Source: Zygnema cylindricum
Lineage: Eukaryota; Streptophyta; Zygnematophyceae; Zygnematales; Zygnemataceae
Reading direction: 5' to 3'
Assembly (NCBI GenBank): GCA_037447655.1
Contig: JBBHKE010000834.1
Coordinates: 642,499-706,498, forward strand
Length of the DNA stretch: 64,000 nt
Below, one piece after another: positions 14,020 through 63,144 of this stretch. Under the pieces are notes generated by a model. The model saw nothing but the letters and a program-made list of their open reading frames with translations, ran no database searches and was not told the origin of the DNA. The stretch's first letter is position 1. Each line of letters starts with the position of its first letter. The position numbers were made by a program, and so were the translations under genes.

Positions 14020-14247
14020 TGTTGGATTGGCACGTGAAGCCGGTCCAATACGGGGTAGAATATGGAAATATCCATACTCGAGCCGCCCGTAATAAATCGG
14101 TACGGACCCGCCAGTCTCAACATCGAGCTGGTGGCACAGTGGTAGTGCGTTCGCAGCTGATTGAAAGGTCCCAGGTTCGAACCCTGGCCGGCTCAATTTT
14201 CCCAAGTGTGGGACATGCCGAATCCCGGATTTCTAGGAAATCTAACA
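14020..14247 (+). mobile_element. Solo LTR of the tRNA-bearing TRIM
   Basis: 228 bp, beginning TGTTGGATTGGCACG and ending GGAAATCTAACA, so it has canonical TG...CA ends with the imperfect inverted pair TGTTRGATT/AATCTAACA. It is homologous end to end to the two LTRs of the TRIM at 20360-20878. I see no target duplication; the right end lies 3 bp from a copia LTR. It contains a tRNA-like sequence at 14125-14194. Confidence 0.8.
14125..14194 (+). other. tRNA-like cloverleaf inside TRIM LTR
   Basis: The acceptor arms GAGCTGG/CCGGCTC pair over 7 bp. The D-arm is GCAC-AGTGGTA-GTGC, with an A-box-like TGGCACAGTGGTAGTGCG. The T-arm is CCAGG-TTCGAAC-CCTGG, with a B-box GGTTCGAACCC. The anticodon stem is damaged in this copy. 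Length is 70 nt. The loop lacks the usual T33, so it is unlikely to work as a translating tRNA; an internal Pol III promoter is plausible. Confidence 0.75.
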
Positions 14248-14250
14248 CAC

Positions 14251-15887
14251 TGTACTCACGGTATTTTCAAAACCCTAATTTTCGCTAGCCATAATATTGT
14301 TGTTTTTAAAAACTTAGTTTCGTGCGTACGCGACTTTTAGTAGGCTTGAGACGTTTCGTGCGTATATTATTAATGTGGAGGTTTGAATGGATTCACGGAT
14401 TGGGGGAGCGAACGTACGGATGAAACTAAAGTGAAGTAAGTGAGTTATTGAGTGGCGTGACTATGCTGAAAGAAATGGACGGCGGATCGCCAAGCGATCC
14501 GATTTGAAATGTACGAAACGTTGCGGCGCATTTATTTGAAACAAGAGTACTTTAAATAAGACAACACAGCTACTACAAAGCTGCGGTTATTTTTGGATAT
14601 GTCTAGGTATATGACAATGCAGCTGTGACGAAGCTGAAAATGCAGCTGCTGTTGATATGAATCAAGTCGGTGGACGAGATTCATACGAAGATCACAAGTG
14701 ACTGAACAAGATGACTTTTCGGAGATGTTAGTGTAAATATTTGGTTGGACACTGGTTTGTCATTTTGTTAATTAGTTTATTAGTGTAGATGAATTCATTC
14801 TAACATACATCGAATTATTCGGGTATACTCGTAGTAATTTAGGTAGGTGGTAGTTAATGTACGACTGGTATGCCTCCGTACATACAGTAGTGAACTCTTT
14901 GACTATTACTTGTAGGACTTTGATTATTGAGATATCACAGTCAAGTTTATCAAAGCAATGGCAAACTAGTTTTTGCATCTTTGACCTATTGGTGTGATCA
15001 CCTTGTTTGGATTTTTCATTTAAAACTTTGTGAAACTATTATATGATTCAGAATATGTATGTGTGTGCAGTTTCATTCCATACTGTTATATTTGTAATAT
15101 TCTGTGAGAGGTCTAAGCGGTTAGTTTGTGAAGATGTCAACTGTTTTTGTGGAACTTTAGAACTTATATCTTCTAAATTCCGTGGTGGATTGACTGTAAC
15201 TTTGGGAGCTTTTAGTGTCTATAGTATACTGCCTATTGGTGTAGTTTAAGGGGATTTTATTCTTTGTGGAGTAATCTGTGTTGTATGAACACAACTGTTT
15301 TTGAGGTAGTCTGTGGTGCTTCCGAGAGTAATCCATGGCTGAAATATGTTATGAATAACAAATCTAAGTGACGAAACACTAAATTTTAATGCGCTTAAAA
15401 CAAAACAGCGTGTTTCAACTATTTTCAGTTTCGGCGCCGTACAACTAATGTTGGTTTCGCTTAGTAATCGTTAATCGCGACAGTCCACCCGATTGTTCTT
15501 CAGAAGTACGGTCCACCTGGGCGCGTACAGTTGTGCTTAGTCACTTGTGGTCCCCGCACGAATCACGTCCGTAGACTTGATTCGTTAACAACGGTACTTG
15601 TTATTCCTTAAAGGTAATTGTTCCCAAATGCACGCTTTTAATTCGGCCAGTCCGAACTTGTGATTCTGCTCGTTGATAATCAACACGTGTATGTTGTTGT
15701 CGACGCTCTTCCGGAATATCTACACAAAGCTTATATATTGACGCGTGTCCTTGTAGACATACAACATACTCTGCTACAGTAACACTAATAAAAGTAAGTA
15801 TCACAATTTGACTTAGACAGAAATATTCTAAGTCCTAAAATCCCCCTCACACTATTACCTGCTAAGATCAAAGCTTTAATTTCAGCA
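14251..15887 (-). repeat. E3 3' LTR, interrupted by mini-element
   Basis: 14251-14297 plus 15361-15887 match the 5' LTR at 22055-22619 (shared motifs: TGTACTCACGGTA, CTAATTTTCGCTAGCC, AGTGACGAAACACTAAATTT, TAATAAAAGTAAGTAT). The uninterrupted copy at 22090-22100 reads GCTAGCCGT-AATCT-AAGTGACG, i.e. the pre-insertion site of the mini-element. Confidence 0.8.
14298..15360 (+). mobile_element. One-LTR copia mini-element, copy 1
   Basis: 1063 bp, starting TGTTGTTTTTAAAAACTTAG and ending ...GTTATGAATAACA, flanked by the near-identical 5-mers AATAT and AATCT; the empty site with AATCT is visible at 22.1 kb. Its 3' half is homologous to the leader and first codons of copia gag E4 (minus strand around 24240-24700): both read ...GTGGTGCTTC(C/G)GAGAGTAAT.. 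then ATGGC(T/A)GAAA. The element therefore ends within a gag start rather than in a second LTR. Confidence 0.72.
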
Positions 15888-16881
15888 CTCCCTTAAAGCT
15901 TTAGACTCAGCTAGTCATTTAGTCTAATATCATCTCTGCAAAACTGTAACTTTGGTGCAAGGAGAGCCTTGGTTAGCATGTGTGCGACCATTTTTTCATT
16001 AGCCAAATAACACAATTTGATGACTCTAGCTAGCACCTTTTCTTGGACAAAGTGTAACTTGATATCTATGTGCTCACTTTTAAAGTGATGGCTCGGATTG
16101 GAGGCAATGGCAATGGCAATGGCAGCCCGATTATTGCACCAAATGAATTGAGGTCAAAATGCATGTACCCAAGTTCTTGTAGAAGTTCCTTCACCCATAG
16201 GAGCTCTTTAAGTGCAGAGCTTGCAACCATATACTTTGACTCCATTGTTGACTGTGCCGTGACCTTCTGAAGCTTGCTGCTCCAGCAACACGTTCCATTT
16301 CTAATCTGCAAGACAAAACTAGTCGTTGACTTTCTGCTAGGCATGTCGCTATAGCTAGCATCGCTTCGAGTGTGCAACTTCACTTCTCCACCTCTGAGAA
16401 CAAGTTTGAGAGTCCGAGTCCCTGCCAGGTATCTCAGAACCCTCTTTGCAGCTTCCCAATCTGATTTCTTCGGATTATGCAAACTCCTACTTAGAACACC
16501 CACAGCAGCTGCGATATTCGGCCTTCTGTAATTCATAAAATAGACGAGGCTACCTACTACCTGCTTGTATGGTTTAGAGACCATAAACTCCTCCTGCCCT
16601 GACTCCTGACTCTCACTGAATAGAATACCAGAATGTGAGTCATCTCCCTCAAATTTATGTCTAAAATCCATAGGCGTTACACACCTGTTTACTTCCTTCA
16701 TTTCGAGTTTTTCAAGCATATTTCCTATAGCCTCCTTTTGACTTAACATGATTAGTTTCTTGTTCCTATCTCTCTCTACTTGTATTCCTAAAATATACTT
16801 GGCCTCTCCGAGGTTCTTCTTCTCAAATCTTGATTTTAAGGCTTCCTTAATGTGGTTTATTTCACTCATACATTTGCTAAT
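15888..16881 (-). pseudogene. E3 reverse transcriptase C-terminal part and RNase H
   Basis: Seen: GEAKYILGIQVERDRNKKLI, GSLVYFMNYRRPNIAAAVG, VLSRSLHNPKKSDWEAAKRV, the RNase H segment SDASYSDMPSRKSTTSFVLQ, and TAQSTMESKYMVAS. These are hallmarks of copia RT connection and RNase H. Near 16066-16140 a (GGCAAT)n expansion shifts the frame before the final SNPSHHF..., which continues in another frame to ~15890. Upstream the RT is cut by the mini-element at 16882. Confidence 0.85.
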
Positions 16882-17898
16882 TGTTGTTTTTGAAAAGTTA
16901 GTTTCGTGCGTACGCGACTTTTCGTGCGTACACAATGTTTCGTGAGTCTAGTACGCGATTTTAGTGCGTATGATATTTGGATTTATTGTGGAGGTTTCAA
17001 TAGATTTTCGGGTTGGGGGAGCAATGGTACTACTTGTTTTGGGACGTACGGAACTATTTGAGTGGCGCGAACAAACATATGAAAAGGTATAAAATGTGTA
17101 AGTCAAAGGTACGGACTAATTTGGATGAGATGACGTTACTTCGTCAAGTGAATTGTGTGAAGGATCAAGGATCAAGGATGCCGAATAAGATCTACGGACG
17201 GCGGCGCCGTCAGTTTGGTGAGGGACGCGAAATCGCGTCCATCACATGATATTTACTTTGGACTGTCCGGATTCGTTTGAGGGAATTCGTAAGAGTTGTA
17301 AATATTTGACAATGTTTTGTCCTGTATATTCATTATTAGTGTAGATCTCAGATACACTCACATTAATAGAGGTAGTTGATGAATTACGTACGGCTGGTAT
17401 GCCTCCGTACAGTTAGTAACAAGCTGTCGTGTATATTTGTAGGACTTGGACATTTTTAGACTTAGGAACATTTGGACAGAAACTGTTTTCTTCTCAATTT
17501 TGGGAATTTCATCTGAGAATTGCTCTCAGTTCTATTGGCAAAATTATCTGAAATTTTGCATGTGTGTTCCTCCTTCTATTGGCAATATTTTGGAAGATTT
17601 ACAAACTTAGTGTGTGTCTGGTTTGCTTGGGGATTCATTGTGATGTTTGTCAGATTTATCAAAGTTATGGTAGGCTGTTTTTCTGCAACTTTGACGGAGT
17701 GTTGTGATTATTCGGTTTGGTATTGTTATATGAAAATTGGTGGGAATACTAATTGGCCTAGAAAATATTTGGTTAAGTAGTTCCAACTTGTTTTGGTTAT
17801 TCTGTAGAATTCAAAGTGGAATTAAAGGAGGCTGTTTTGGGGTAGTCTGTGGTGCTTCCGAGGGTACATTCATGGCTGAAAAAGGGCTATGAACAACA
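16882..17898 (+). mobile_element. One-LTR copia mini-element, copy 2
   Basis: 1017 bp, from TGTTGTTTTTGAAAAGTTAG to ...GGGCTATGAACAACA, with a perfect 5-bp target duplication CTAAT (16877-16881, 17899-17903). It is inserted in the E3 RT just after the YVDD-type motif. Its ends (TGTTG...CAACA) are inverted repeats. Internal homology to copy 1 runs throughout, and its 3' end again coincides with the first gag codons of copia E4. Confidence 0.82.
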
Positions 17899-17903
17899 CT
17901 AAT

Positions 17904-18480
17904 AAGTAGTGGATCATCTACATATACAACAATATATAGTACTCCATCCTCCCCTTGCAATATATACACATAGCGATTTGAACTAATCCTTTTAAAACCT
18001 AGTCCAGTGAAAAACTCATCTAGCTTTAGGTTCCACATCCTAGGGCCTTGTTTTAGCCCATACAAAGATTTTAACAGTTTGCACACTAATTTCTCCTTTC
18101 CTTTTTTTTCATACATTTCAATTTGTTGCATATAAATATATTTTCTTCTAACTCTCCATGCAAAAAGGTTGTTTTGACGTCCATCTGATGGACTTCTATC
18201 TTCTCAATTGCAACTAAACTTAGCATATTTTTAACAGTTGGCAATCTTACAACCAGAGAGAGATTCTCCTCAAAATCAATTCCCTTTTTCTGATTGTAAC
18301 CTTTGGCCACAAGTCTAGCCTTTTACCATTCAATGGTGCCATCCGGGTTTAATTGTACCTTGAACACCCACTTACTCCCGATGGCTTTTCTGTTTGGAGG
18401 AATCTCCACCAACTCCCACGTTTGAGCTTTCATAATGGATTTCATCTTGTCATTTGCTGCCTCGATCCAGTGAGTTCTTT
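17904..18480 (-). pseudogene. E3 reverse transcriptase N-terminal part
   Basis: Seen: VAKGYNQKKGIDFEENLSLV, VHQMDVKTTFLHGELEENIF, KLLKSLYGLKQGPRMWNLKL, and YIVVYVDDPLLIS (catalytic DD intact). It joins across the mini-element to the RT/RNase H remnant at 15888-16881. Frameshift near 18120. Confidence 0.85.
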
Positions 18481-19855
18481 CTAGTGATGAGAAGGCCTCC
18501 CAAATGGTTAGAGGTTCCTTTGAGGCGGTAGAGCATGCAAAGTGCGATCAAGATTGCAAACGGCTGCTAGATCTCCTTCCTCTCATAAATTTTGAGGCTA
18601 AGATCGATGGATGCTGTCGTTTTTTGTCTGTCGTGGAGCGGGATGTGTGTCCTCCGAGAGTGGTGCAGCTAGCTCCGAGGGAGCCGTAAGAGGGACATAA
18701 AGGTCCGTGAACACAGTCACCATAGGTTGCTGCAGAGGAACCTGAAAGTAAATGATCTTCTTTGTGTCGAAGATGACATAATCCTGCAATTTTTCTTCCG
18801 CATGTTTATGTATCATTGTGAAATAATCAGCCGATTCTTCTTCATCTTTTATAATGATATTCCTTGACACATCTACTTTTTGTTTATCACATACCTACAC
18901 CGTATACCCCTTAGATGTATCATCATTTCCCATTAGATTACCCGGTAAGCCTTTCGGTTCCATTTTCCAATTATTTTGTGATGTGTTAAGAATGAAAGCA
19001 CTTATTGCCAAAAACTTTAAAATGACTGACCTAAGGTTTCCTACCTGTTTATAGCTCAAATGGTGTAGTGCTAAATGATCTTGATGCAATTTAATTCTTT
19101 ATATAAACTGCACAGTTAAGGCCCTCTGCCCAAAATTTCAAATCTACATTTTTGTCTGCAAGCATGGATCTAGCACTCTTTGTAACTGTTCTATTTAACC
19201 TTTCTCAAACACCATTCTGTTGAGGCGTATATGGAACCTTCAACTGCGATTAATATCTTCATCTAAAGAAACTTTTTAAATTCATTGGACATATACTCCT
19301 CTCTGTTGTTCGATCTTTATTCCAAAATCGGAACTCTATGTAATTTCTCCGCCCAAGCTTTGTAGTGTTTGAGGTGTTCGAACACTTCACTCTTCTCCTT
19401 CATAAAATAAACTTTTGTAAATCTAGAAAAATAGTCAGTAAATGTGACCATGAAGCGAAGTCCTCCTGCAACAAGCACCTGAGCCGGGCCTAAAACATCA
19501 AAATGCTGGGCCTAAAACATCAAAATGCAGGGCATAAAACATCAAAATGCATGAGTTGGAGTACTTTTTCCGAACGATAATCCGATTCCTGAGGAAACGG
19601 TAACGTATGAATTTTACCTAATGAGTATTTATCACAAGTCTTAACAAGCTAATCTGTGAGAGAAACACCTTCACCTTTGCCAGCATTTACCATTTTCCTC
19701 AAACTATCATTGTTAACATGTCATAATCTTTAATGCCACAACTCATTTTCAAAAAAAACACTAGAATAGAGAACATCATTTTCCTTAGTATTAGCCATAT
19801 CCATGCGGTACATTTTGCTTTCATCTCTAGTTCGTGTGGTGGCTACCTTTCCTAG
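18481..19855 (-). pseudogene. E3 integrase remnant (heavily decayed)
   Basis: Fragments in several frames: KMEPKGLPGNLMGNDDTSKG (integrase C-terminal domain), an EYMSNEFKKFL-like core stretch, VYFMKEKSEVF and a HRLPFPQES-type segment. Stops and frameshifts are numerous. Confidence 0.7.
19490..19556. repeat. 22-23-bp tandem repeat x3 in E3 integrase
   Basis: Three near-identical units of (gg)gcctaaaacatcaaaatgc. The sequence is single-copy in the related elements, so this is a local expansion, probably by replication slippage after the element died. Confidence 0.85.
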
Positions 19856-20221
19856 TTAACTAACAACTAGCCTATCCCCAATAAGGGTGACCTCAAATCC
19901 TTTGCTTTTAACAAGTGATGTAGAAAAAAGGTTCTTTTTGAAGTTAGCAACATACAAAACATTGTCAAGTGTTCTTTCAACTGACTTCCCTCTTACATCT
20001 ACCAGCAGAGAGACATCACCCTGAGCATTAGTTTGAACAATCATGCCACATGCATAGTCAATATTTTTTGCAGGTGTAGCCTTGAGATTAGTGAAGATCG
20101 ACTTGTTCCTTAACATGTGGGCCAATGCTCCCATGTCCATGATCCATCCGACGTCTTTTGAGCCCTCCATTGCTGCTGCCATAGCAAATAGTTTTGATTC
20201 ATCTTGTTCGTTCAAGTTCAA
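19856..20221 (-). pseudogene. E3 aspartic protease domain
   Basis: 122-residue open segment: AMAAAMEGSKDVGWIMDMGA-LAHM ... TLDNVLYVANFKKNLFSTSL ... GFEVTL. In copia elements the catalytic motif is D(S/T)GA; here it reads DMGA, which should abolish activity. Upstream it joins the gag remnant interrupted by the TRIM. Confidence 0.82.
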
Positions 20222-20359
20222 CGATTAATCCTCCTCAGTAGAAGATGAAAAAAACATAAAATTGGTTTGAACATGCTTTCCAGAGAAGCCCTGATTAATG
20301 GACTCGGCTGCCAACCCGACCTATATAGACCTGTTTCATTTGCCTTTTTCAGTTAAGGA

Positions 20360-20588
20360 TGTTAGATTTCCTAGAAATCCAAGATTCGGCATGTCCCACA
20401 CTTGGGAAAATTGAGCCGGCCAGGGTTCGAACGTGGGACCTTTCACTTCAGCTGCGAACGCACTACCACTGTGCCACCAGCTCGATGTTGAGACTGGCGG
20501 GTCCGTACCCATTTATTACGGGCGGCTCGAGTATGGATATTTCCATATTCTACCCTGTATTGGACCGGCTTCACGTGCCAATCCAACA
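20360..20588 (-). repeat. TRIM 3' LTR
   Basis: 229 bp, minus strand TGTTGGATTGGCACG...AAATCTAACA. It is nearly identical to the solo LTR at 14020-14247. It contains the tRNA-like sequence 20413-20483. Confidence 0.85.
20413..20483 (-). other. tRNA-like cloverleaf in TRIM 3' LTR
   Basis: 71 nt: acceptor GAGCTGG/CCGGCTC, D-arm GCAC/GTGC, anticodon arm TTCGC-AGCTGAA-GTGAA (one G-T pair), 5-nt variable loop, and T-arm CCACG-TTCGAAC-CCTGG with a damaged 5' strand. The formal anticodon would be CTG (Gln) but position 33 is G, not T. The A and B boxes are well kept. Confidence 0.75.
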
Positions 20589-20651
20589 CCCCCCCTCACG
20601 GGAAAGCCAGTCAAACCATCCGGTTCGGTGACATTGTGACGCCATGCTCAC
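20589..20651 (-). other. TRIM internal region (PPT side and putative PBS side)
   Basis: 63 bp between the LTRs. On the minus strand it begins GTGAGCATGGCGTCACAATG next to the 5' LTR and ends CGTGAGGGGGGG next to the 3' LTR. The G-run is a good polypurine tract. The start shows no obvious match to a tRNA 3' end. Confidence 0.7.
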
Positions 20652-20878
20652 TGTTGATTTCCAAAACATCCGGGATTCGGCATGTCCCACACTTGGGAAA
20701 ATTGAGCCGGCCAAGGTTCGAACCTGGGACCTTTCACTTCAGCTGCGAACGCACTACCACTGTGCCACCAGCTCGATGTTGAGACTGGCGGGTCCGTACC
20801 GTATTATTACGGGCGGCTCGAGTATGGATATTTCCATATTTTACCCCGTATTGGACCGGCTTCACGTGCCAATCCACA
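20652..20878 (-). repeat. TRIM 5' LTR
   Basis: 227 bp; minus-strand start TGTGGATTGGCACG, end GGAAATCAACA. It differs from the 3' LTR at several positions and by small indels, so the insertion is not recent. It contains the tRNA-like sequence 20704-20774. Confidence 0.82.
20704..20774 (-). other. tRNA-like cloverleaf in TRIM 5' LTR
   Basis: 71 nt. It has the same arms as the 3' LTR copy, with a T-arm CCAGG-TTCGAAC-CTTGG that still pairs (one G-T). Conservation of both acceptor strands, the D-arm and the B-box in three copies suggests that structure or promoter is under constraint. Confidence 0.75.
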
Positions 20879-20883
20879 AAGGA

Positions 20884-21697
20884 CAGTATCTAAAGCCATG
20901 ACCACGTTCGAAACAATAAAAACAGGTTGTGAAAGAATATCTATTTTGTCCTTGATTAAACTGTTTAAACTGATCTTGATTATGGTTAAGCTAATTCTTG
21001 GGTTGATTTAATTGATTTCTTGACTGGTTAAACTGACCTTTCGTCTCAAATTTTGTGTTAAAAGCCTAGAATTTCTTCTCTTCATTAAGAACTTATGACA
21101 TAGACTCTTCTTCCAAAATAATATTGATAGCTAACTGAAGTGTCCAACTATCTTTATCATGCTTTTTAAGTGCAACATATGCATCTTTCATACTGCTAAG
21201 GAAAACTCTAATGACCAAAGCAGCTTGCTGAAATTCAGGAAAGGTACCACAAGCACAAGCATAAGCATCAATAAGAGTTCGAAAGTTATCAGTATACTCG
21301 GCCACCGTTCCTCCCGAGTATTTGGAGTCTCAGATCTTTCCTGCCAACAAGAGTTCTTATTGAACGTTCGCCTTCTCATAAGACGCCTTAAGAGATTTCC
21401 AAATATCAATTGCTTCTTCATTTTGATTCGAGACATCGCTTGGTTCTCCGAGAGACATAGTTTTAGAGTATTTTGAGCCGGTGAATTCTTTTTCGCCCAA
21501 GTTGGATCTAATTCATCAAGTGATCCATCTAGAATCTCCATCAAACCTGCAGTTTCAAAGTACGACACAACCATATCCGCCCAGTAAGCATATTTTTGCC
21601 CATTAAAGATAGGAATTTTTGAAGACAGGCACATAACCTTTTGTTCTATGACTACCGATTCAGGTGGAGCTGCACCAGTAGATGTAGAAGTAGACAT
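20884..21697 (-). pseudogene. E3 gag
   Basis: Starts MSTSTSTGAAPPESVV, followed by LSSKIPIFNGQKYAYWADMV and LDGSLDELDPTWAKKN; then (frameshift near 21400) MAEYTDNFRTLIDAYACACG, FQQAALVIRVFLSS and LAINIILEEES. The CCHC zinc knuckle CFYCFERGHGFRYC is intact around 20890-20935, directly next to the TRIM target site; the reading frame meets a stop after CP. Confidence 0.82.
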
Positions 21698-22054
21698 GTT
21701 TTTCCACACACGCTAACAAGAAACCCTTCCAAACAACATTTTTCTAAACACTACAGAATGAGACTCACAACTCCAAATACAACCAAAATTTGAAAACAAA
21801 TAGATCACCATGCACATTGTCAATTCCCAAATTTGCAGCAAACACAGTCTAGTAAACTATAAGATATGGAAATAAGAAGTTTCCCAAAAATTGCCTCAAA
21901 GTTTCTATATTCTCAAAACTGGATGATACATTTTTTCTAATTCCTAAGCTTTATAGACTCGAAGTATGTCTAATCTGACTAACTAATCAACAACTAACAC
22001 TTGGCGTTATCGTATTGCACTACAAAATGACAAGGTACCGGAATTGTACGTCAT

Positions 22055-22619
22055 TGTACTCACGGTACTTTCAAAACCCTAATTTCCGCTAGCCGTAATC
22101 TAAGTGACGAAACACTAAATTTTAATGCGCTGAAAACAAAACATTGTGTTTCAAATATATTCAGTTTCGACGCTGTACAACTAATGTTGGTTTCGCTTAG
22201 TAATCATCATTCGCGACTGTCCACCTGATTGTTTTTCAGAAGTACGGTCCACTTGGGCGCGTACAGTTGTGCTTAGTCACCTGTGGTCCTCGCACAAATC
22301 TCGTCCGTCGACTCAATTCGTTACCAACGGTACTCGTTATTCCGTACAGGAAATTCCCAAAATGCGCGCTTTTAATTCCGCCCGACTGATCCTGTGATTT
22401 TGCTCGTTTGATAATCAACGCGTGTATGTTGTTGTCGACGCTCTTCCGTAATATCTGCACAAGCCTTACATACCGACGCGTGTCCCTGTAGACATACTAC
22501 ATACTCTGCTACTGTAACACTAATAAAAGTAAGTATTACAATTCGACTTAGACAAAAATATTCTAAGTCCTAAAATCCCCCTCACACTATTATCTGCTGA
22601 GAACAAAGCTTTAATTTCA
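22055..22619 (-). repeat. E3 5' LTR
   Basis: About 565 bp, plus-strand TGTACTCACGGTACTT ... AAAGCTTTAATTTCA, matching the split 3' LTR at 14251-15887. It interrupts the gag of copia E4 on its right side. Boundaries were set by where the two LTRs stop matching. Confidence 0.75.
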
Positions 22620-25505: not shown

Positions 25506-26745
25506 CTGACCCATTTGATGAGTACTTAAGCTTTCTAATCTCAACAATAGTGCCAACGGATCTAGAAGCAATTTTGTTCTCAATATAAACAACACAGTTC
25601 AGTGTTTCAACCCAGAATTTCAAATCTAGCCTTTTATTTGCAAGCATGGACTTAGCACTCTCCGTCATTTTCCTCTTTAACCTCTTTGAAAAACCATTTT
25701 GTTAAAGAGTATATAGAAATGTAAGATTATGATTGATAACTTCCAGAAGGAGAAACTCTTTGAATTCCTTTGATGTGTATTCTCCCCCATTGTCCGACCT
25801 CAGAGCCAAGATTGGAACCCCATGAAGCTTTTGCGCCCACGCTTTGTAGTGTTTGAAATGAGTTAACACTTCACTTTTATGTTGAATGAAGTAAACTTTG
25901 GTGAACCTCGAGTAACCATATAGTGGACGCCTCAAGCGGAAGCCACTATTGAAGGACTGAGAACATCAAATTCTATTAGCTGCAAAACTTTGTTCGTTAT
26001 GTGGTCCGTTTCCTGGGGAAATGGCAATTCGTGGATCTTGCCAAGTGAACAACCATCACATGATTTTATAGGGTGAAAAGTGAGGGAAAATCCATCAACT
26101 TTTCCTAAATTCGCCATTTTTCTTAGACTATCATAATTCATATATCCTAATCTTTTATGCCACAACTCATTATCAGTTTGGACACTGGAGTAGGCAAAAT
26201 CATTTTCTTTATATTCGACTATGTCCATCCGGTACATTTTGTTAGCATCTCTAGTTTTTATGAGTGCTACTTTCCATTTTTTGCTAACAATGTGTCTACC
26301 TTCTTTCGGAATGACTTCAAACCTTTGCTCTCCACTAAGGATGTAGAAAAAAGTTTTTTTTTAAGTGTAGAACACACAAAACATTGTAAAGTGTTCTCTC
26401 TAATGGCTTTCTCTCCACATCTATCATCAAAGATAAATCACCTTCAGCCGAGGTTTGAACCCTCATGCCACAAGCATGGTTGATACTCTTTGAAGATTAT
26501 TGCTGCAGATTGGTAAAAGCCGCTTGTTCCAGCACATGTGGGCCGATGCTCCTGTGTCCATGATCTAACCTGATTCATTTGGACCCTCCATTGCTGCTTC
26601 CATAACAAATAAATCAGCCTCCTCTTGCTTAGTGAAACTCAGAGACTAGTCTGCATCAACTGTAAAAGCTAAAAATAGAGTAGGTCTGTTGTGCTACAAC
26701 CACCGGTGCCGGTGGAGGAGTAGCAGTAGTAGTAGAAGTAGACAT
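25506..26745 (-). pseudogene. Copia E5 gag-pol remnant (gag mostly deleted, truncated in integrase)
   Basis: Minus strand: a few gag codons at ~26745 run straight into a protease region (an MDTGASAHMC-like stretch with stops around 26520-26570), then MYRMDIVEYKENDFAYSSVQ, the HHCC knuckle (WHKRLGYMNYDSL ... CDGCSLGK), LRSDNGGEYTSKEFKEFL and MTESAKSMLANKRLDLKFWV, ending at ~25530 where E4's LTR begins. Many frameshifts. Confidence 0.78.
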
Positions 26746-27013
26746 GATACACTCTCAGAAGCTATCAAGAATCCTACCAAACAGCTGTTCTTAAGTGCTC
26801 ACCACTTCTTATAGAAGCATCGAAACCTCACAAAACTGTATCAGAATATAGAGTAGAATAAACACTGATAACTCCCTAAGTTATAGCACAATTGACCCGA
26901 CAACACTCAAGATATAATACTCAGAAGTTTCCCAAAAACTGTTGCAGTTTTACTACTTGGAAGTCTGGATACATAATATGTTATGAGTCCTAAGTCTTAT
27001 ATTTGTGTTGAAC

Positions 27014-27487
27014 TGGCAACACCAATGTACTTGAGAGGTACATCAAACCACCAAGCTACCACTAATCTGTCAAGATACCATTGAGCTATCACTAAGATAC
27101 CACTGAGCTATCACTAAGCTAACTAGAATCGTATCTATCGCAGTTGCTCTATCCTGTACAGAATCACATTAAGAATATTAGACGTTGCGTTGTCCGTACG
27201 GACCATATCAAATATAATCGTGGTTGCCTTGTCCTGTCTGTGATGCAGCTTCGCTGTTGGGCTGCTCTGCTGCTGCGCTGCTCTGCTGTATAGCAGCAGC
27301 TCTGCTGGATAGCAGCTGCTTTGCTGTATAGCAGCAGCTCTGCTGTATAGCAGCAGCTCTGCTGTATAGCAGCTGCGCTGCTCTGTTGTATAGCAGCTGC
27401 GCTGCTCTGTCTGTATAGCAGCTGCGCTGCTTCGTCTGTAAAGCAGCTGCGCTGCTCTGAGACTGAAAGCTTTCCAAAAAAACCACA
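27014..27487 (-). repeat. Copia LTR shared by E1 (3' LTR) and E5 (5' LTR)
   Basis: About 474 bp, plus-strand TGGCAACACC...CCACA, matching 32145-32560. On its right lies a polypurine tract (minus CTTTAGGGGAG) and the E1 RNase H end; on its left lie E5's leader and gag ATG. One LTR therefore serves two internal regions, as after LTR-LTR recombination. It contains the CAGC hairpin minisatellite. Confidence 0.7.
27236..27465. repeat. GCTGCTCTGCTGTATAGCAG minisatellite in LTR
   Basis: About ten imperfect units containing GCTGTATAGCAGC, each self-complementary, so the array can fold into serial hairpins. The sister LTR (32380-32540) has fewer units, so copy number varies between LTRs of one element. 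Confidence 0.85.
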
Positions 27488-27649
27488 CTCCCCTAAAGCT
27501 TTAGACTCAGTATCCCGGCGCAGCTGTGGTGATAAACTAGTGCAGCACTGCGGTAAAGCAGTATAGCAATTAGCAAATCACCCAGTCCCAGTATATATCT
27601 TAATGGTGGATTTATCGCAGAGTGACAGTATAGCAGTGCATCAATTCAA

Positions 27650-28652
27650 CTATTCACTTAATCCCACTGCGTCCCTACAATACTTCAGCTTAGGAGCAAG
27701 AAGAGCTTTAGTGAGCATATCAACAATCATTTTTTCATATGGTAAATAACATAATTTAAACACTCTAGAGAACACTTTTTCTCTTACAAAGTGTAATCGT
27801 ACATCCATGTGCTTGCTTTTGAAGTGATGACTTGGGTTAGAAGCAATGGGAATGGCAGCCTGGTTATCACACCAAATCACTTGTGGACCAGCTTGCATGT
27901 ATCCTAGTTCTTGTAACATGGATTTTACCCATAAGAGTTCTTTGAGGGCCGAGCTTGCTGCCATATATTTTGACTCCATTGTCGACTGTGCTGTAACCTT
28001 TTGAAGTTTGCTGCTCAAACAGCAAGTACCGTTCCCAATTTGTAGAACGAATCCCGTGGTGGATTTCCGGCTTGGCATGTCGCCATAGCTTGCATCACTC
28101 CATGTTTGCAGCTTGACTTCTCCTCCGCCTAGAGTGAGTTTGAGATCTTTAGTTCCTGCCAAATATCTTAAGACTCTCTTTGCTGCATCAAGATCAGATT
28201 TTCTCGGATTTTCTAGACTCCTACTCAGTACCCCCGACTGCTGCAGCAATGTCAGGACGGGTACAGTTCATGAAGTATATTAAGCTTCCCATTATCTGTC
28301 TATAAGGTATAATTGTCATAGGATCATTCTCCCCTGATTCTAAATACTCGCTAACAATGACACCTGGTTCTGTCTCTTCTCCCTCTAACTTCTGTCGAAA
28401 CTCCATTAGAGTTAAACATCCTTTTGCCCCCCGCATTCGGTACTTATCTAACATGTTTCCAATAGCCTCTTTTTGAGTCAATTTTATTATTTTCTTATTT
28501 CTGTCCCTCTCTACCTGGATACCCAAAATATATTTTGCCTCACCGAGGTCTTTCATCTCGAACTGTGAGTTTAGAGCAGTTTTGATTTTGTTAATTTCAG
28601 CCATTGATTTGCTAATTAATAGCGAATCATCTACATATACTGCTATATACAC
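27650..28652 (-). pseudogene. E1 reverse transcriptase C-terminal half and RNase H
   Basis: MYIAVYVDDSLLISKSMAEI (YVDD catalytic motif), then GEAKYILGIQVERDRNKKII, GSLIYFMNCTRPDIAAAVG; frameshift at ~28245 into VLSRSLENPRKSDLDAAKRV, SDASYGDMPSRKSTTGFVLQ, TAQSTMESKYMAASSALKEL, IWCDNQAAIPIASNPSHHF-KSKHMDV and MLTKALLAPKLKYCRDAVG. The RNase H acidic residues are present. Confidence 0.88.
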
Positions 28653-29155
28653 TTTCCATTTTCACCCTTTAAAACGTAGACAGAGTGATCAGAACTTATC
28701 CTTTGAAATCCTAGACTAGGCAAGAATTCATCAAGCTTTATATTCCACTGTCTGGGGGCCTGTTTTAGGCCGTACAAAGATTTTAACAACTTGCATACTA
28801 AGTGCTCTTTTCTTAGTTCCACATACTTTTCAGGCTGCTGCATGTAAATGGTCTCTTCTAGTTCTCCATGCAAAAAGGCCGTTTTTACATCCATCTGATG
28901 AATTTCCATATCTTCTATAGCAGCTAGGGACAGCAAAATCCTAACTGTTGGAAATCTTACAACCGAAGAAAATGTTTCTTCAAAATCGATTCCTTCCTTT
29001 TGATTGTACCCCTTCGCCACAAGTTTGGCCTTATAGCGTTCAATGGTGTTATCGGGATTTAACTTCACCTTGAATACCCATTTGCTGCCGATCGCTTTTC
29101 GGTCCGGAGGAAGGTCCACGAGCTCCCATGTTTGAGCCTCCATGATCAACTTCAT
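28643..29155 (-). pseudogene. E1 reverse transcriptase N-terminal half
   Basis: MKLIMEAQTWELVDLPPDRK, WVFKVKLNPDNTIERYKAKL, VAKGYNQKEGIDFEETFSSV, IHQMDVKTAFLHGELEETIY and KSLYGLKQAPRQWNIKLDEF. The A-box Asp of RT (MDVKTAFL) is present. A one-base shift at ~28650 separates it from the YVDD half. Confidence 0.88.
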
Positions 29156-29287
29156 TTCGTCGTTTGCCGCCTCAATCTAGTGATTCCGCTCTGGTGATGA
29201 GAAGGCCTCTTGGATGGTTAAGGGCTCCCCTGAGATTGCAGAGTAGGCAAAGTGAGAGCTTGCTTGTAGGCGACTGCTTGATCTTCT

Positions 29288-30550
29288 TCACCCCGGAAAT
29301 TCTGAGGCTGAGATCGTCGGATGCCGCGCATTGCGCTGATTGCGCTGATTGCGCTGGTGGCGATCTGTGTCTTCCTGATTGCGCTGGTTGCGATCCGTGT
29401 GCTCGTGATTGCGCTGGTTGCGATCCGTGTGTATTGACTGCTCTTGGTCCGTCTGGACCCGAAGTTGGTGAGGAAGTTGGAGAGAGTCTGACGCTGGAGT
29501 CATAATCGGAGATTCTGGAATCTGCGGGACAATTTTCTGCATGCAATCTAAGATGACATACTCCTGTACTTTTTGTTGCTTTTGCTGCTCTGTCATTTGA
29601 AATAAATCTATGGAGTCTAGTTCATCCTTAACAATGATGTTTCTAGCTACAACTCTTTTCTGCCTTTCAAACACAAAGACTCTATAACCTTTCGAGTGAT
29701 CATCATATCCTAATAGAATACGCGGTAATCCTTTCGGTTCCATTTTCCATCTATCTGTAGACGTATCCAATATAAAGCATTGACTACTTAAGACCTTGAA
29801 ATGGCTAACATCTGGTTTGCTACCTGTCCAGATTTCGTAAGGAGTTGTTTCTACTGATCTTGATCCTATTCTATTTTTAATATAAACTGCACAATTTAGA
29901 GCCTCAGCCCATAATTTCGCATCCACATATTTATCTGCGAGCATAGATCTAGAGCTTTCCGTGAGAGTTCTATTCAGTCTTTCCGACACCCCATTTTGTT
30001 CCGGTGAATATGGAACAGTCAATAGATGACTAATGCCTTCCTCGAGTAAAAAGGTTTCAAATTCTTTCGATGTATATTCACCACCATTGTCTGATCTGAG
30101 CTGTAAAATAGATGTATTATGAAGTTTTTCAGCCCATGCTTTATAGTGTTTGAAGTGACTAAACACTTCACTCTTCTCCTTCATGAAGTAAACTTTTGTA
30201 AACCTGGAGAAATCATCTGTGAAGGTGACCATATATTTCATCCCTCCGGCAGATGGAACCTTCGCCGGACCAAAGACATCCGAATGAATTTGTTGTAAAA
30301 GTTTCGTTGACCGATGGTCAGACTCCTTAGGAAATGGCAATCTGTGGATTTTGCCTAAAGCGCAACCATCGCAAGTTTTGACCGGCCCATCTGTGATTGA
30401 TACACCCTCTATTTTTCCAGCAATGACCATTTTCCTCAAACTATCATAATTAACATGGCCTAATCTTTTATGCCACAACTCACCTGAGTGCAAAACACCG
30501 GAGTACAAAACATCATTCTCCTTGGTATTAGCCATATCCTTGCGATACAT
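29288..30550 (-). pseudogene. E1 integrase
   Basis: 420 residues open. The HHCC zinc finger (WHKRLGHVNYDSLRKM ... CDGCALGK) and the catalytic D,D,E triad are intact: IHSDVFGP, LRSDNGGEY and SPEQNGVSER. The C-terminal domain has KMEPKGLPRILLGYDDHSKG. The tail carries a young repeat of (T)DRNQRN(xx)-type units encoded by gcgctgattgcgctg-like DNA at 29335-29430. A frameshift joins it to the protease ORF. Confidence 0.9.
29320..29440. repeat. Short tandem repeats (TGATTGCGCTGGTTGCGAT) in integrase tail
   Basis: Perfect and near-perfect units of 12-30 bp (tgcgctgattgcgctgattgcgctg; tgattgcgctggttgcgatccgtgtg twice). They encode a Gln/Arg/Asn-rich tail absent from E6. Confidence 0.8.
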
Positions 30551-30918
30551 CTTGCTTCTATCTCTAGTACCTGTAACCGCACCTTGCCATTTTTGCTAAC
30601 AACTTGCCGACCATTTTTCAAATTAACCTCAAAGCCTTTGCTCTCTACCAACGACGTAGAAAACAGATTTTTCTTAAAGTCAGGCACAAATAAGACATTG
30701 TGAAGAGTTCTTTCAATTGCTTTTCCTTCTACATCAACTAGTAAGGACACATCACCCACAGCACGAGTTTGGACACTCATTCCACAAGCATAGTAAATAT
30801 TTTTCTCCGGCGTTGCTTTCAGATTTTTGAAGATGGCCTTGTTCCAACACATGTGGGCTGACGCTCCATTATCCATTATCCATCTGGGGTCCTTCGCGCC
30901 CTCCATTGCAGCCGCCAT
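30460..30918 (-). pseudogene. E1 aspartic protease domain
   Basis: MAAAMEGAKDPRWIMDNGAS-AHMCWN, then YACGMSVQTRAVGDVSLLVD, RTLHNVLFVPDFKKNLFST and GFEVNLKNGRQVVSKNGK. The catalytic motif reads DNGA where copia proteases have D(S/T)GA; with DMGA in E3, this family appears to vary or lose the residue after Asp. Confidence 0.85.
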
Positions 30919-30936
30919 AGCGAATAGATCAGTATC

Positions 30937-31875
30937 CTACTCTGTAGAAACCGTCAAAGTCTCGTCTTGGAGAGACGAAGAAGCCGAAAATAGTGCATTT
31001 CCACGAGGTGTAGTCCCCGTGAAGTCTTTGTAAAAATGGCTTTGTTGCCATCCCAGCTGGTATAAACTTGTATCGTTAGCTCTTTGTAGCTTAGGACAAA
31101 ATTTGTATCCATGACCTCTCTCACTACAATAAAAGCATGCATTGTTGGATTGTCTATTTCCACCTTGATTAAAATGTCTGAACTGATTATACTGATTTTT
31201 TTGCTGATTAAACTGTCCTTTTTTCTCAAAGTGTGAATTAAAAGCTTCCACTTGCTCAACATTGAGAATATTAGATGGAGCTTCCTCCTCTAGTAAAATG
31301 TTGATGGCTAACTGTAAAGTCCAGCTAGCTTTATCTTTTTGTTTGAGCATGTCAGATGCTGCTTTCATACTACGAGGGAGACCGCTCATGAGCAATGCTG
31401 CTTGTTGAAAAGGAGGAAACACCCCACCTGCACAAGCATGTGCATCTACAAGGATACGAAATTTGTTAGAGTATTCAGCCATTGTATCGCCAGTGTACTT
31501 ATAGTCCCCTATTTTTCCAACCAATAGAAGCTCTTTCTGGACATTCGCCTTTTCATAATCACTTTTAAGAGATTTCTAGATATTAATTGCTTTTTTCATC
31601 TTTATCCGAGTCATAGCTAAGTCCTCAGATATACAAAATTTCAGAATAGACCGAGCTTGCATATTTTTCTTAGACCATGACGGATCAGATTCATCCAGCG
31701 AACCATCCAATATATCTAAAAGATCGATATTTTCAAAATGTGTTTCCACCATATCCGCCCAATAAACAAACTTATCCTCGGAAAAGATAGGAATTCTTGA
31801 TGACAGGCCCATAACCTGTTGTCCTACAACCACCGGTGCAGGTGGAGGAGCAGCAGTAGTAGTAGAAGTAGACAT
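30937..31875 (-). pseudogene. E1 gag with CCHC zinc knuckle
   Basis: MSTSTTTAAPPPAPVVVGQQ to a stop at 31576, then KSDYEKANVQKELLLVGKIG, YSNKFRILVDAHACAGGVFP, FQQAALLMSGLPRSM, LAINILLEEEAPSNILNVEQ, a Gln/Asn-rich stretch and the CCHC knuckle CFYCSERGHGYKFC. One in-frame TAG near the middle is the only obvious defect. Confidence 0.88.
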
Positions 31876-32144
31876 GATACACTCTCAGAAGCTATCAAGA
31901 ATCTTACCAAATAGCTGTTCTTAAGTGCTCACCACTTCTTATACAAGCATCCAAACCTCACAAAACTCTATCTGAATATAGAGTAGAATAAACAGTGATA
32001 ACTCCCAAAGTTATAGCACAATTGACCCGACAACACTCAAGATATAATACTCAGAAGTTTCCCAAAAACTGTATGCAGTTTTACTACTTGGAAGTCTGGA
32101 TACATAATATGTTATGAGTCCTAAGTCTTATACTTGTGTTGATC

Positions 32145-32560
32145 TGGCAACACCAGTGTACTTGAGAGGTTCACCAAACTATTAAGCTACCACTAATCTG
32201 TCAAGCTACCATTGAGCTATCACTAAGATACCAGTGAGCTATCACTAAGCTAACTAGAATCGTATCTATTGCAGTTGCTCTATCCTGTACAGAATCACAT
32301 TAAGAATATTAGACGTTGCGTTGTCCGTACGGACCATATCAAATATAATCGTGGTTGCCTTGTCTTGACTGTGTTGCAGCTTCGCTGCTGCGCTGCTCTT
32401 GCTGTATAGCAGTTGCTCTGCTGGATAGCAGCTGCTCTGCTACATAGCAACTGCTCTGCTGTATAGGAGCTGCGCTGCTCTATCTGTAAAGCAACTGCGC
32501 TGCTTTGTCTGTAAAGCAGCTACGCTGCTCTGAGACTAAAAGCTTTCCAAAATGACCACA
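32145..32560 (-). repeat. E1 5' LTR
   Basis: About 416 bp, plus-strand TGGCAACACC...GACCACA; minus start TGTGGTCATTTTGG. It is highly similar to 27014-27487, with fewer minisatellite units. On its right it abuts the truncated gag of E7. Confidence 0.72.
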
Positions 32561-33456
32561 AGGTCCACGGGTAGGATTCCCATAAAAGCCTTTGTGATAT
32601 TAGCTTTTTTGCCAGCCCGGTCTATATAAATATTTCTCATTTGCCATTTTCAGCTTAGGGAAATACTTGTATCCATGTCCCTTCTCAATGCAATAAAAAG
32701 AATGTAATAGAAGATGGCCTATTTAGCCTTTGATTAAATTGATTAATTTGATTTTGATTCTGGTTAAAGTGATTTCTATTCTGATTAAACTAATTTCTTT
32801 TATCAAAGTCTATTGCAAATGCCTCTACCTGGCTTTCTCCATCAAGAAGCTTAGTGTTAGACTCTTCTTGCAATAAAAGATTATATGCTAACTGAAATGA
32901 CTAGCTAGCCTTATCATGATTCATTAACTGAACCAAGACCCCTTTCATGTTACTAAGCGCATTTCTAACAAGCAAAGCAGCCTGTTGAAACTCAAGAAAA
33001 GCTCCACCTGCAGAAGAGTGTGCATCAATTTGTGCTGGAAAATTGTCATAATACTAGACCATAGTCCCCCCCCAAGTATTTGTACCCCCAAACTTTTCAA
33101 GCCACCATGAGCTCTTCTTAGACATTCGCTTTCTGAAAAGCACATTTCAGTGATGTCCAAATCTCGCTCACCTTCTTCATTTTCAGTCAAAACATGACCA
33201 GATTTTTTGAAATACAAAAAATGAGATTATTCATCGCCATTTAATTTTTTTTCGCCTAACTCGGATTTGTTTCATCAAGGGAGCTATCTAAGACCCCCAA
33301 TAAGGCAGCAGTTTCAAACGAAGATTCATCCATTGCAGCCCAATACGCATACTTTTGGCCATTGAAGATAGGGATTCATGACGAAAGGCCCATAACGTGT
33401 AGTTCTACAACCACCGTTGCAAGAGGAGAAACAACAGTAGTAGTGGAAGTAGACAT
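32561..33456 (-). pseudogene. Copia E7 gag remnant
   Basis: Begins MSTSTTTVVSPLATVVVE at 33456, with stops and frameshifts throughout; IPIFNGQKYAYWAAM, VLDSSLDETNPS and an FQQAALL-like segment can be made out, and a broken knuckle near 32700. E1's LTR cuts it at 32561. Confidence 0.75.
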
Positions 33457-34345
33457 GAAAAATTACTGAAGTTATCAAACACCTACTCAACTGCCAATTT
33501 TCAGCTTACACAATATATGACTCAAGACGCCAATATCCCTTCAATTTGCCACATTGATACACAACACAATAAACTGACAATTCCCAAAATTGCAGCCCAA
33601 ATGACTCACTAAATCATAAGATATGATGCCTAGAAGTTTCCCAAAAACTGCCTTTAGAATATTATAATCCCAAAACTGGATGATTCAAAATTGGCTAAGT
33701 CCTAAACTACATACTTATAGTGAGTATCTATTGGTAACACTAATTGGGGTGACTGTACTACAGTACTATCTTGACTTACGACAAAGTATCCAACCAGTTC
33801 GTTACTGTTTCGTGAGTACTTCCAAAACCGTAATTAATTCTTTCCACAACTAATTAATGAAACACTATTTTTTATTGCGCTAAACTACAAAATACTATTC
33901 TCCAAATATTTAGACATAGTGGACCGTACAATAAATGTTTCGGGTGCTTAGTCAGCGGTGGTTGCTAAAGTCCCGCTGACTATGGTAGTTCAGTATGAAG
34001 CACTTGGGTGTCTACGATATGTTTTTTCACCTGTGGTTCCACGTGAATCGCGTCCGTCGACACGATTTGAAACAACGATCATAATGAATTTCTGTACCAT
34101 ACATCTCCGAAATATCCGGTCCAAAATCCGTTCGTCTGATCGGTGAATTCGCTCGTCTACTTCAACACGCGTGTAATCAGTTGTCGGCGCCACTGCGTAA
34201 AACTTGCATAATCTTTTCTTTGCGACGCGTGTCCTTGTAGCAATACAATACACTATATTGTACTTCTGCTACTGTAACACTAATAATGGGTAAGTATTAC
34301 AACAAAAGATTTATAAAATATTCCAAGTCTTTTAGTCTCCTCTCA
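33457..34345 (-). repeat. E7 leader and 5' LTR
   Basis: Leader 33457-33723. LTR about 33724-34345, plus-strand TGGTAACACTAATTGG ... GTCTCCTCTCA. It shares CGTGAATCGCGTCCGTCGAC and TGTAACACTAATAATG-type segments with the E3 and E4 LTRs, so E3, E4 and E7 belong to one LTR clade. Confidence 0.65.
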
Positions 34346-39282: not shown

Positions 39283-40391
39283 TTACGCTGGTAGACATTT
39301 GCCCCCTACCATAATATATGAAGGTTTACAAACGCATATGGCCTTGCAGTTTCTAACGACACAAATATAAGGGGCTGGACATGCGTTCAATCGGCACGAT
39401 TCACACGGGGGAGGGCGAGGGGAGGGAGGTGGGGGTCGGGGAGGAGGGAGAGGAGGGGAGGGAGGGCGAGGAGGTTTCACCGGTTTTGGTGGAAGACATT
39501 TTGTCCCTACCAATTTGTTCGGAAATAGACAAACGCAGTAGGCCTTACAGTTTCTACTCACACAAGTAAAGAATGGTGGACATTTGATTTTTGCGCATGG
39601 ATTGCACGGAGGGGGAGGAGCGGTTGTAAGGGGAGAAGGGGATGGTGAAGGGGGGGGAGGGAGCGGAGGTGAAGGAGGGGGCGAGGGGGACGGAGAAGGT
39701 GGGGGGGGTGGTGACCTAGACTCGTTTAATGGTGGGGGTGGCGGCCAATTTAAATCGCTTATTGGTGGGGGGGGAGGCGTCCTTGAATCGTTTATTGGTG
39801 GGGGGGGAGGTATCTTTGAATCGATTATAGGTGGGGGGGGAGGGGTCCGTGAATTGTTTATTGGTGGGGGAAGAGGCGTACTTGAATCGTTTATTGGTGG
39901 AGGGGGAGGCGTCCCTGAATCGTTTAATGGTGGGGGGGAGGTATCTTTGAATCGTTAATTGGTGGTGGGGGAGGCGTCCTTGAATCGTTTATTGGTGGGG
40001 GGGGAGGTGTCCTTGAATCGTTTATTGGTGGAGGAGGAGGTATCTTTGAATCGTTTATTGGTGGGGGTGGAGGCGTCCTTGAATCGTTTATTGGTGGAGG
40101 GGGAGGCGTCCCTGAATCGTTTAATGGTGGTGGGGGAGGCGTCCTTGAATCGTTTATTGGTGGGGGAGGAGGTATCTTTGAATCGTTTTTTGGTGGGGGG
40201 GGAGGCGTTTTTGAATCGATTATTGGTGGTGGTCGCGATGGATTTTTTTTCGGAGGTGGCGGAAACACACACCGTCTATCTTGTAGAAAAGAAGGAGGTC
40301 TACAAATACATGAAGCTTTGCACTTTATGTTTTGGCAAATGTATCCTGGAGGACATTTGGTATTTGCACATGGGTTGCATAGAGGTCCCAT
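39283..40391 (-). CDS. Cys-module / proline-rich repeat protein (HRGP-like), one frameshift
   Basis: Not a named family to me. Minus strand, three Cys modules: module 1 CNPCANTKCPPGYICQNIKC...CIC...C (~40370-40260), module 2 CNPCAKIKCPPFF-TC...C (~39600-39490), module 3 CESCRLNACPAPYIC...C (~39410-39290), all fitting C-x2-C-x4-C-P-x4-C-x4-5-C-K-A-x-C-x-C...C. Between 1 and 2 lie ~16 copies of an 11-residue unit INDSRTPPPPP plus SPSPSPP-type sequence; between 2 and 3 a PPSPPLPPPRPPPPSPRPPP linker. Such Pro/Ser-Pro tracts are hydroxylated and glycosylated in algal wall proteins. The CPPG...C-x-C pattern vaguely recalls follistatin-N domains. A 7-C instead of 8-C run at ~39930 breaks the frame; both halves are otherwise open. 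An acceptor-like tctaaacag just before the ATG hints at an upstream signal-peptide exon. Confidence 0.7.
39715..40240 (-). repeat. 33-bp coding tandem repeat (INDSRTPPPPP x ~16)
   Basis: Units of 33 bp, e.g. plus strand gaatcgtttattggtgg followed by G/A-rich sequence. Unit types alternate (SRT, SKI, SGT), suggesting expansion in blocks. One unit has lost a base in its C-run (7 instead of 8), producing the frameshift near 39930. Confidence 0.9.
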
Positions 40392-43080: not shown

Positions 43081-44491
43081 GAAATGAATAATCAGTACCG
43101 TGTCAGATTTGCGACGCTAATCATGATGTCACGTACTTCCACGATACCAAAAGTACAAAGTACAATAATTTTGGAAAAATAAGTACAAAATTTTCATTTT
43201 TTTTGAATTTTTGGTTAACCGACCGTAACCGACTTTTTTTTTCTGGTGAATCAACCGACCGCAACCGCCCGGCCCCCAAAATTTGGCAACCGAATCCGTT
43301 CCGGATCCGGCGCGGGCGGTCGGTTAACGGTCGGTCACGGTTTCGGTTGACCGTTTGCGACCTCTGATTCACGGTGTACAGTCCTGTACATATCAATATG
43401 GTCCGCGGGTATCGTTTCGCGAATGGGAATATCACTAATAAGATACGGTGTGATCTGGCATAAGCGCCTCCACACTACACAGTGAATCGCTATTAGCGTA
43501 ATGAAATAGATAGCGTAATGAAACAATTAGCGTTATTTACGTTAATTGGGAATGTCGTTTTTTTTGGAAATAATTTTTATTCTAATTTTTCGTACACTCT
43601 AATTTGCAAACTGCTTTGTAAAAAATTTCGGTGCAGAATATCTCCACACTAAAATATGTGCATGTACGAAATTGTTCAGATCGTACGCCGTCGCATTTTT
43701 TTTTCATCCGCGAATGCCGGAAAATATTTACGCAATTACATGTTAGCGCGACTACGGGACAGCGTGGAAATCTTTTCTCTACTTTTCTACTTAAAAAAGT
43801 ACAAAAAAGTACACCTCTGACAAACCGTACACCACACTATTTACGATGGCACTATATTAGAGTCATGAATCCTATTTTATGGAACACCTCAAATAACGTG
43901 TAGGAACATTTAGAATGTCTAATTCTATTTGAGAATTTGCCCAAAAAAACAGGGTACCTCAATTAGCGACCAACACGCTAATAGCGATTCACGGTGTACC
44001 GCTGTATCGTTCATCGATGTTCTTCAATACTGATGACGATATTCCAGCGCGCTGTCGCGAACCGAGCGTAGATAGAAGACTGCGGAAAATCTATTCAGAG
44101 TATAGTGTCACTTTCACGACGTCAGACTGAATTTGAATTGGTTTGGGACGGCAATGCACATGCAGGGTTACAGTATTCTGCCGAGAAAACACCGACACCA
44201 AGTATCGCTATTAGCGCTGATGTTTTTTCACTGCAGAGAAACATCTTTCTACGTGCACACTTCCATGAATTTTAATAACAAATGTCGGCCTTACAAGCTG
44301 ACAAGTGTGCACGGATAAAATATGTCTTAAGTGGCGGGCAAAACATTAACATTGATTAGAGAATTAGCGTTGATTGGAGAAAAATCAGCGACAACTGTCG
44401 CACTCAAAGAAACGGCAACTTCCTCCGAAACCCTAAATACTAGAACGGAAAATGTTGAAAATGAGGATCCTTCTCTTATGGACGTTTCAAA
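43081..44491. repeat. Duplicated block D1 (partner D2 at 47953-49375)
   Basis: About 1.41 kb, nearly identical to D2, beginning at gaaatgaata and ending at gacgtttcaaa. It holds the right-hand part of an hAT element (to 43366) and MITE copy D (43478-43996). Beyond the right border the two copies diverge abruptly. Confidence 0.9.
43478..43996. mobile_element. MITE copy D
   Basis: 519 bp, CACAGTGAATCGCTATTAGC ... GCTAATAGCGATTCACGGTG, TA at both sides (43476-43477, 43997-43998). Same family as copies A, B, E and F. A separate MITE end, ATTCACGGTGTA, at 43367-43378 abuts the hAT end and may be a remnant of another copy. Confidence 0.85.
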
Positions 44492-44494
44492 ATG

Positions 44495-44690
44495 AAATCA
44501 CGCGCACGCCGAATATCGCGAACGCGTGCACGATATCGTGCGCGTGGACACAATATCGCGTGTGCGTGCACCGTATCGTGCACGCATGCAGAATATCGCG
44601 CGTGCGAGCACAATATTCTGCGTGCGTGCGCGATATCGTGTACGCATGCAAAATATTGTGCACGCATGCGTCCGATACCATGCGGCATGA
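44495..44690. repeat. GC-rich ~21-bp palindromic minisatellite
   Basis: About nine imperfect 20-22-bp units such as GCGTGCACGATATCGTGCGC, each nearly self-complementary and rich in alternating purine-pyrimidine (GCGCGTGCAC). The array starts exactly at the right border of D1 and is absent after D2. It can form cruciforms and possibly Z-DNA. The 7-residue-periodic ORFs on both strands are artefacts. Confidence 0.88.
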
Positions 44691-63116: not shown

Positions 63117-63144
63117 TAAGTTTGAAGTACATAGAGACGCACCC

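Follow-up and report, generated by a model that had tools for sequence, protein, structure and literature searches.

What kind of element consists of two LTRs that each contain a tRNA-like sequence, with only 63 bp between them? The question is posed by a 519-bp LTR-interior-LTR unit on the minus strand at 20360-20878 of the window, which is the whole 64,000-nucleotide stretch of DNA analysed here (G+C content, 40.4%). The best answer is that the unit is probably a miniature LTR retrotransposon, non-autonomous and of the Helenus kind as judged against the published description of Helenus, with its tRNA-like part acting as an RNA polymerase III (Pol III) promoter; as a family it would be new. 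The parts of the unit are as follows.

20355-20359, no strand: target-site duplication AAGGA, left copy (direct reading)
20360-20588, minus strand: 3' LTR, 229 bp, TG...CA (pairwise alignment; ends as in 14020-14247)
20589-20651, minus strand: interior, 63 bp (between the LTRs)
20589-20599, minus strand: polypurine tract GTGAGGGGGGG, adjoining the 3' LTR (direct reading)
20652-20878, minus strand: 5' LTR, 227 bp, TG...CA (pairwise alignment)
20879-20883, no strand: target-site duplication AAGGA, right copy (direct reading)

An earlier, sequence-only reading of this DNA had drawn most of this outline. Its boundaries for the unit and its length for the interior proved exact, and its TG...CA ends are found on all three LTR copies in the window (the third is described below). 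The LTRs themselves are 227 and 229 bp long rather than the 230 bp it gave them, and they are 94.2% identical over 226 aligned columns. It had also placed a G-run polypurine tract immediately before the 3' LTR. The minus-strand end of the interior is indeed GTGAGGGGGGG, which abuts that LTR and contains a run of seven Gs, one of 20 runs of at least seven Gs or Cs in the window. The predicted AAGGA duplication is present and perfect around the LTR pair; by simple arithmetic, two given sites would share the same five bases by chance in about 1 case in 1000. No ORF of at least 130 amino acids (the limit for listing) overlaps the interior, which is too short for a protein of its own.

The window holds one further member of the family, so that the family is represented here by one full-length unit and one single LTR.

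14020-14247, plus strand: single LTR belonging to this family, 228 bp (alignment to the element LTRs)

This copy is 96.9% identical to the 3' LTR and 95.6% identical to the 5' LTR, and its termini match their TG and CA ends. It is not a clean solo LTR, because the five bases on either side differ: AAAGT stands on the left and CACTG on the right, with no matching 5-bp duplication. Recombination between elements, or a later change next to the LTR, would explain the unmatched flanks. The right flank consists, at least initially, of fragments that resemble the neighbouring Copia element. A 48-bp block at 14248-14295 resembles 22052-22099 (91.7%) and adjoins the single LTR at one site and a Copia LTR at the other; the 46 bp that follow it (14296-14341) match 16880-16925 at 93.5%.

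What, then, is the sequence inside these LTRs? The relevant features are the tRNA-like parts and the T runs behind them.

20412-20483, minus strand: tRNA-like part of the 3' LTR, 72 nt, with the first base of the B box altered and one T-stem pair broken (ARAGORN; Rfam RF00005, 43.3 bits)
20703-20774, minus strand: tRNA-like part of the 5' LTR, 72 nt, anticodon read as CTG (ARAGORN; Rfam RF00005, 48.8 bits)
14125-14195, plus strand: tRNA-like part of the single LTR, 71 nt (ARAGORN; Rfam, 50.5 bits)
20698-20701, minus strand: TTTT in the 5' LTR, one base away from its tRNA-like part, putative terminator for Pol III (T-run listing)
20407-20410, minus strand: TTTT at the equivalent site in the 3' LTR, putative 3' terminus of the genomic RNA (T-run listing)

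ARAGORN calls a tRNA in both LTRs of the element and in the third copy. In each element LTR the Rfam tRNA model spans the tRNA-like part end to end, with E-values for the element stretch of 6.2e-8 (3' LTR, 43.3 bits) and 1.9e-9 (5' LTR, 48.8 bits). The curated cut-off of the model is 29 bits. A default scan of the whole window listed the third copy only (14125-14195), and the two matches in the element surfaced only when a short stretch was searched with permissive filters. Matching the LTR copies to a tRNA model had been proposed as a check, and all three copies in the window match (48.8, 43.3, and 50.5 bits). A 71-nt cloverleaf had been described in each LTR. The match to the tRNA model bears this out but the length does not: only the third copy has a tRNA-like part of 71 nt, and in both element LTRs it measures 72 nt.

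The three copies differ in condition. In the 5' LTR every pair of the Rfam tRNA model is standard. In the 3' LTR the first G of the B box has become C and one T-stem pair is disrupted. The third copy has an anticodon arm one base shorter; ARAGORN finds an anticodon of four bases in this copy and gives it no tRNA type. Minimum-energy folds of the three stretches, each folded alone, give the acceptor and D stems and no full cloverleaf. Every LTR copy in the window (three of three) has the A box, TGGCACAGTGG, and two of the three have the B box, GGTTCGAACC. Of the A and B boxes claimed for each LTR, therefore, the A box stands in both, whereas the B box is intact in the 5' LTR and damaged in the 3' LTR. 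TTTT follows one base past the tRNA-like part in all three copies, and a second TTTT lies at element base 213, in the 5' LTR only. Does this sequence still make a tRNA? The base preceding the anticodon CTG is G. The usual base at this place is U, and for this reason a working tRNA is unlikely. To judge from its sequence, the tRNA-like part would be a promoter and not a functional tRNA.

TRIMs with tRNA-derived sequence in their LTRs have a name. They were called Helenus by Kojima (2024; Biology 13:119, PMC10886601), which overturns the earlier statement that no TRIM doing this with a tRNA had been described. Rust fungi have 113 Helenus families, and further ones come from a few Agaricomycetes, from six animal phyla and from one plant, Selaginella moellendorffii (PMC10886601). 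Table 1 of that paper gives Selaginella as the sole plant and lists no liverwort, and neither "Marchantia" nor "bryophyte" occurs in its main text. The lengths of Helenus elements run from 311 to 1263 bp, the screen having taken TRIMs under 1000 bp, plant and fungal members have 5-bp duplications, and solo LTRs occur (PMC10886601). The present element agrees with this description in several respects. It is a TRIM of 519 bp, with LTRs of 227 and 229 bp and an interior of 63 bp; tRNA-derived sequence with A and B boxes lies inside its LTRs (three of three copies by Rfam); the polypurine tract GTGAGGGGGGG precedes the 3' LTR; the duplication, AAGGA, is of 5 bp as in plant and fungal Helenus; and a single LTR occurs at 14020-14247. 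There are also differences. Helenus-1_SMo has an LTR of 120 bp and an interior of 85 bp, as against 227-229 and 63 bp here, and the usual Helenus box A motif, TRGCY (PMC10886601), is matched here only as TRGC.

Helenus, Cassandra, and Ajax have been grouped as TRIMp3 (PMC10886601), and the element resembles the other two as well. With Cassandra, the comparison originally made, it shares a small RNA gene with a Pol III promoter in each LTR and a predicted transcript that would run from the 5' LTR into the 3' LTR and stop there. Cassandra transcription begins within the 5S sequence of the 5' LTR and finishes within its counterpart in the 3' LTR, according to the passage in PMC10886601 that cites this work. 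The difference is that the RNA gene here is tRNA-like whereas Cassandra LTRs carry 5S rRNA. No 5S match was found at the Rfam gathering threshold in the window or at E-values up to 1 in the element; both scans gave tRNA matches only. Ajax, a TRIM of ribbon worms, is alike in belonging to the proposed class TRIMp3 and differs in its 5S fragment and its animal host.

Among the literature matches listed, judged by title and the start of the abstract, Kojima (2024) is the only paper on TRIM LTRs that contain tRNA sequences, and none reports such an element from a liverwort. Gao et al. (2016; PMC4717578) detected TRIMs in Selaginella and none in the moss Physcomitrella. Exact pattern scans of viral contigs gave no matches to the element. 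Among genome contigs, the same kind of scan picked out 10 stretches, all bacterial, that match exactly over 18 bases; these are taken as chance. The locus adds a well-bounded example, complete with an empty site (see below), to a kind of element that was named only in 2024. A further implication is that some of the tRNA genes predicted in such genomes may really be the ends of retroelements, as has been shown for rust fungi (PMC10886601).

How might such an element be copied? Pol III transcription is plausible, given the A box, the B box and the TTTT that follows the tRNA-like part. RNA polymerase III would bind the 5' LTR at its A and B boxes and initiate immediately upstream of the tRNA-like part there. 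With some frequency it would pass the first TTTT, traverse the 63-bp interior and stop in the 3' LTR, at the TTTT that follows the tRNA-like part. Both ends of such an RNA would carry the tRNA-like stretch (about 80 nt), which could serve as the R region needed for the first strand transfer. Reverse transcriptase and integrase would be supplied in trans by an autonomous LTR retrotransposon. The helper is most likely of Copia type, because the duplication is of 5 bp and because Kojima linked fungal Helenus to Copia (PMC10886601). Read-through would be needed because TTTT also stands behind the 5' tRNA-like part, where it should end much Pol III transcription early.

The primer is harder to place. 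A Helenus element should have a primer-binding site complementary to the 3' end or the anticodon loop of a tRNA (PMC10886601). The interior here starts with GTGAGCATGG, and the first TGG comes only at interior base 8; with no TGG at the start, no primer-binding site was recognised in the interior. Comparison with the 3' ends and anticodon loops of some plant tRNAs gave no convincing match. Self-priming is not supported: the 5' LTR contains no exact complement, six bases long or longer, to any part of the first 18 bases of the interior. In the window no partner has the first 25 interior bases (with up to three mismatches) besides the element itself, and inspection by eye of the ends of both Copia elements revealed no primer site in common with the small element.

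What if the R region is the entire tRNA-like gene, start site and TTTT included? In this scenario one Pol III gene would act as promoter, terminator and strand-transfer repeat, the amount of genomic RNA would depend on how often the first terminator is read through, and the tRNA-LTR element of the host lineage would have arisen independently of that of Selaginella. This is a tentative proposal, and it may well be wrong. The element would offer a testable case of a Pol III promoter that has its own terminator inside an LTR while full genomic RNA is still made.

Some observations speak against the Helenus reading with its Pol III promoter. They are the TTTT behind the 5' tRNA-like part and the second TTTT in the 5' LTR, the damaged B box of the 3' LTR, the box A match to TRGC only and the incomplete cloverleaf folds, together with the unrecognised primer site, the lack of a partner with the same interior start in the window, the presence of only one full-length copy in the window and the single LTR that has no duplication.

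Perhaps the tRNA-like part is just a passenger. The element would then be an ordinary TRIM, transcribed by Pol II, whose LTR at some time took up sequence from a tRNA or a tRNA-SINE. A full-length Pol III RNA would be hampered by the TTTT that follows the 5' tRNA-like part, one LTR has a damaged B box, and Kojima states that the Pol III activity of Helenus is unvalidated (PMC10886601); all of this suits a passenger. Yet the tRNA model still scores 43 to 50 bits in three of three copies despite an LTR difference of about 6%, and the A box and TTTT are unchanged in all three, although selection cannot be demonstrated from so few copies. On balance a Pol II TRIM with a passenger tRNA is an unlikely account of the locus.

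The other alternatives dispute that there is an LTR element at all, and the site at which the unit is inserted bears on them.

15361-22619, minus strand: Copia-type element hosting the small element, with LTRs at 15361-15884 and 22097-22619 (self-comparison)
32610-32921, no strand: paralogous empty site (alignment to the joined flanks with one AAGGA)

The LTRs of the host Copia element are 89.3% identical over 525 columns. Its DNA is related to that of an element around 27650-31524, in which ORF 29288-30550 encodes GAG-pre-integrase and integrase domains (Pfam) and is followed by reverse transcriptase ORFs identified by eye. When the flanks of the small element are joined with a single AAGGA, they align to 32610-32921 with 223 of 337 columns identical and 30 gap columns, the latter away from the junction. 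The match begins 51 bases to the left of the junction and is gap-free at and near it in two alignments. Joined flanks of 500 bases also match 30626-31558, in one stretch (979 columns, 66.6%). With 300-base joined flanks searched against 30000-34000, the matches at 30796-30927 and 31193-31335 fall on either side of the junction and do not cross it, so that 32610-32921 is the only stretch observed to cross. Because the empty site crosses the junction gap-free, the whole LTR-interior-LTR unit was inserted at once. LTR divergence is about 6% in the small element as against about 11% in the enclosing Copia element, the order that would be expected if the small element had been inserted later. What the locus contains is an LTR pair with a common tRNA-like sequence, a polypurine tract, a 5-bp duplication and insertion as one unit into a Copia element. 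The initial description, which likened the unit to Cassandra and made it a TRIM whose LTRs each carry a tRNA-like gene, is upheld by the termini that match in three of three copies, the duplication, the polypurine tract and the empty site.

Could a deletion product, or a segmental tandem duplication, mimic this structure? The window has one full-length copy and a single LTR (14020-14247) that lacks a target duplication, and both facts would be in keeping with a mimic. It would nevertheless have to combine TG and CA ends, a polypurine tract, a 5-bp duplication and an empty site, and the third copy, elsewhere, has matching ends. A mimic is very improbable. Tandem SINEs are the weakest candidate. 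SINE2 elements, which are derived from tRNAs, have an internal tRNA-like Pol III promoter as this element does, lack the LTR pair and polypurine tract, and have a 3' tail and variable target duplications. That two such SINEs lie side by side is scarcely credible: units of about 230 bp with an internal tRNA-like promoter, one of them standing alone in the window, would fit, but a single 5-bp duplication encloses the pair, the ends are TG and CA with the polypurine tract directly before the second unit, none of the three copies (14020-14247 included) has an A-rich or simple-repeat tail, and the pair as a whole is absent from the empty site at 32610-32921. The earlier argument from duplication and polypurine tract against two SINEs is supported, and the empty site now adds to it.

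The window also contains other repeats and retroelements. Two related Copia-type elements lie at 26686-32532 (LTRs of about 730 bp, 91.1%) and 15361-22619 (LTRs of about 525 bp, 89.3%), and a further stretch related to both extends over 32586-34302. For the Copia protein of the window, the named species among the best 120 of 1026 matches are angiosperms, Phytophthora and bacterial bins, with no liverwort among them. The Gypsy protein of the window has 66 matches, two of them to Calypogeia fissa, a liverwort, and one to Pseudoscourfieldia marina. A non-LTR reverse transcriptase ORF (Pfam RVT_1) lies at 58348-59202. Riccia fluitans accounts for 11 of its 19 protein matches (11 of the 12 with a named species), and one match is a Mesen1 (JGI) protein. 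The best Riccia fluitans match has 57% identity over 55% of the query, which suggests that this ORF and the proteins of that liverwort are kin, though probably not close kin.

At 39698-40232 an internally repeated stretch encodes, on the minus strand, a proline-rich sequence that follows a cysteine-rich start; ORF 39924-40391 has no Pfam match. About 230 bp at 63144-63371 match their own reverse complement at 87.9% and could form a large hairpin. Finally, dispersed repeats of 1.4 to 2 kb, with 92.5 to 97.5% identity, lie at 43081-44497, 46266-49381, and 59553-61560.
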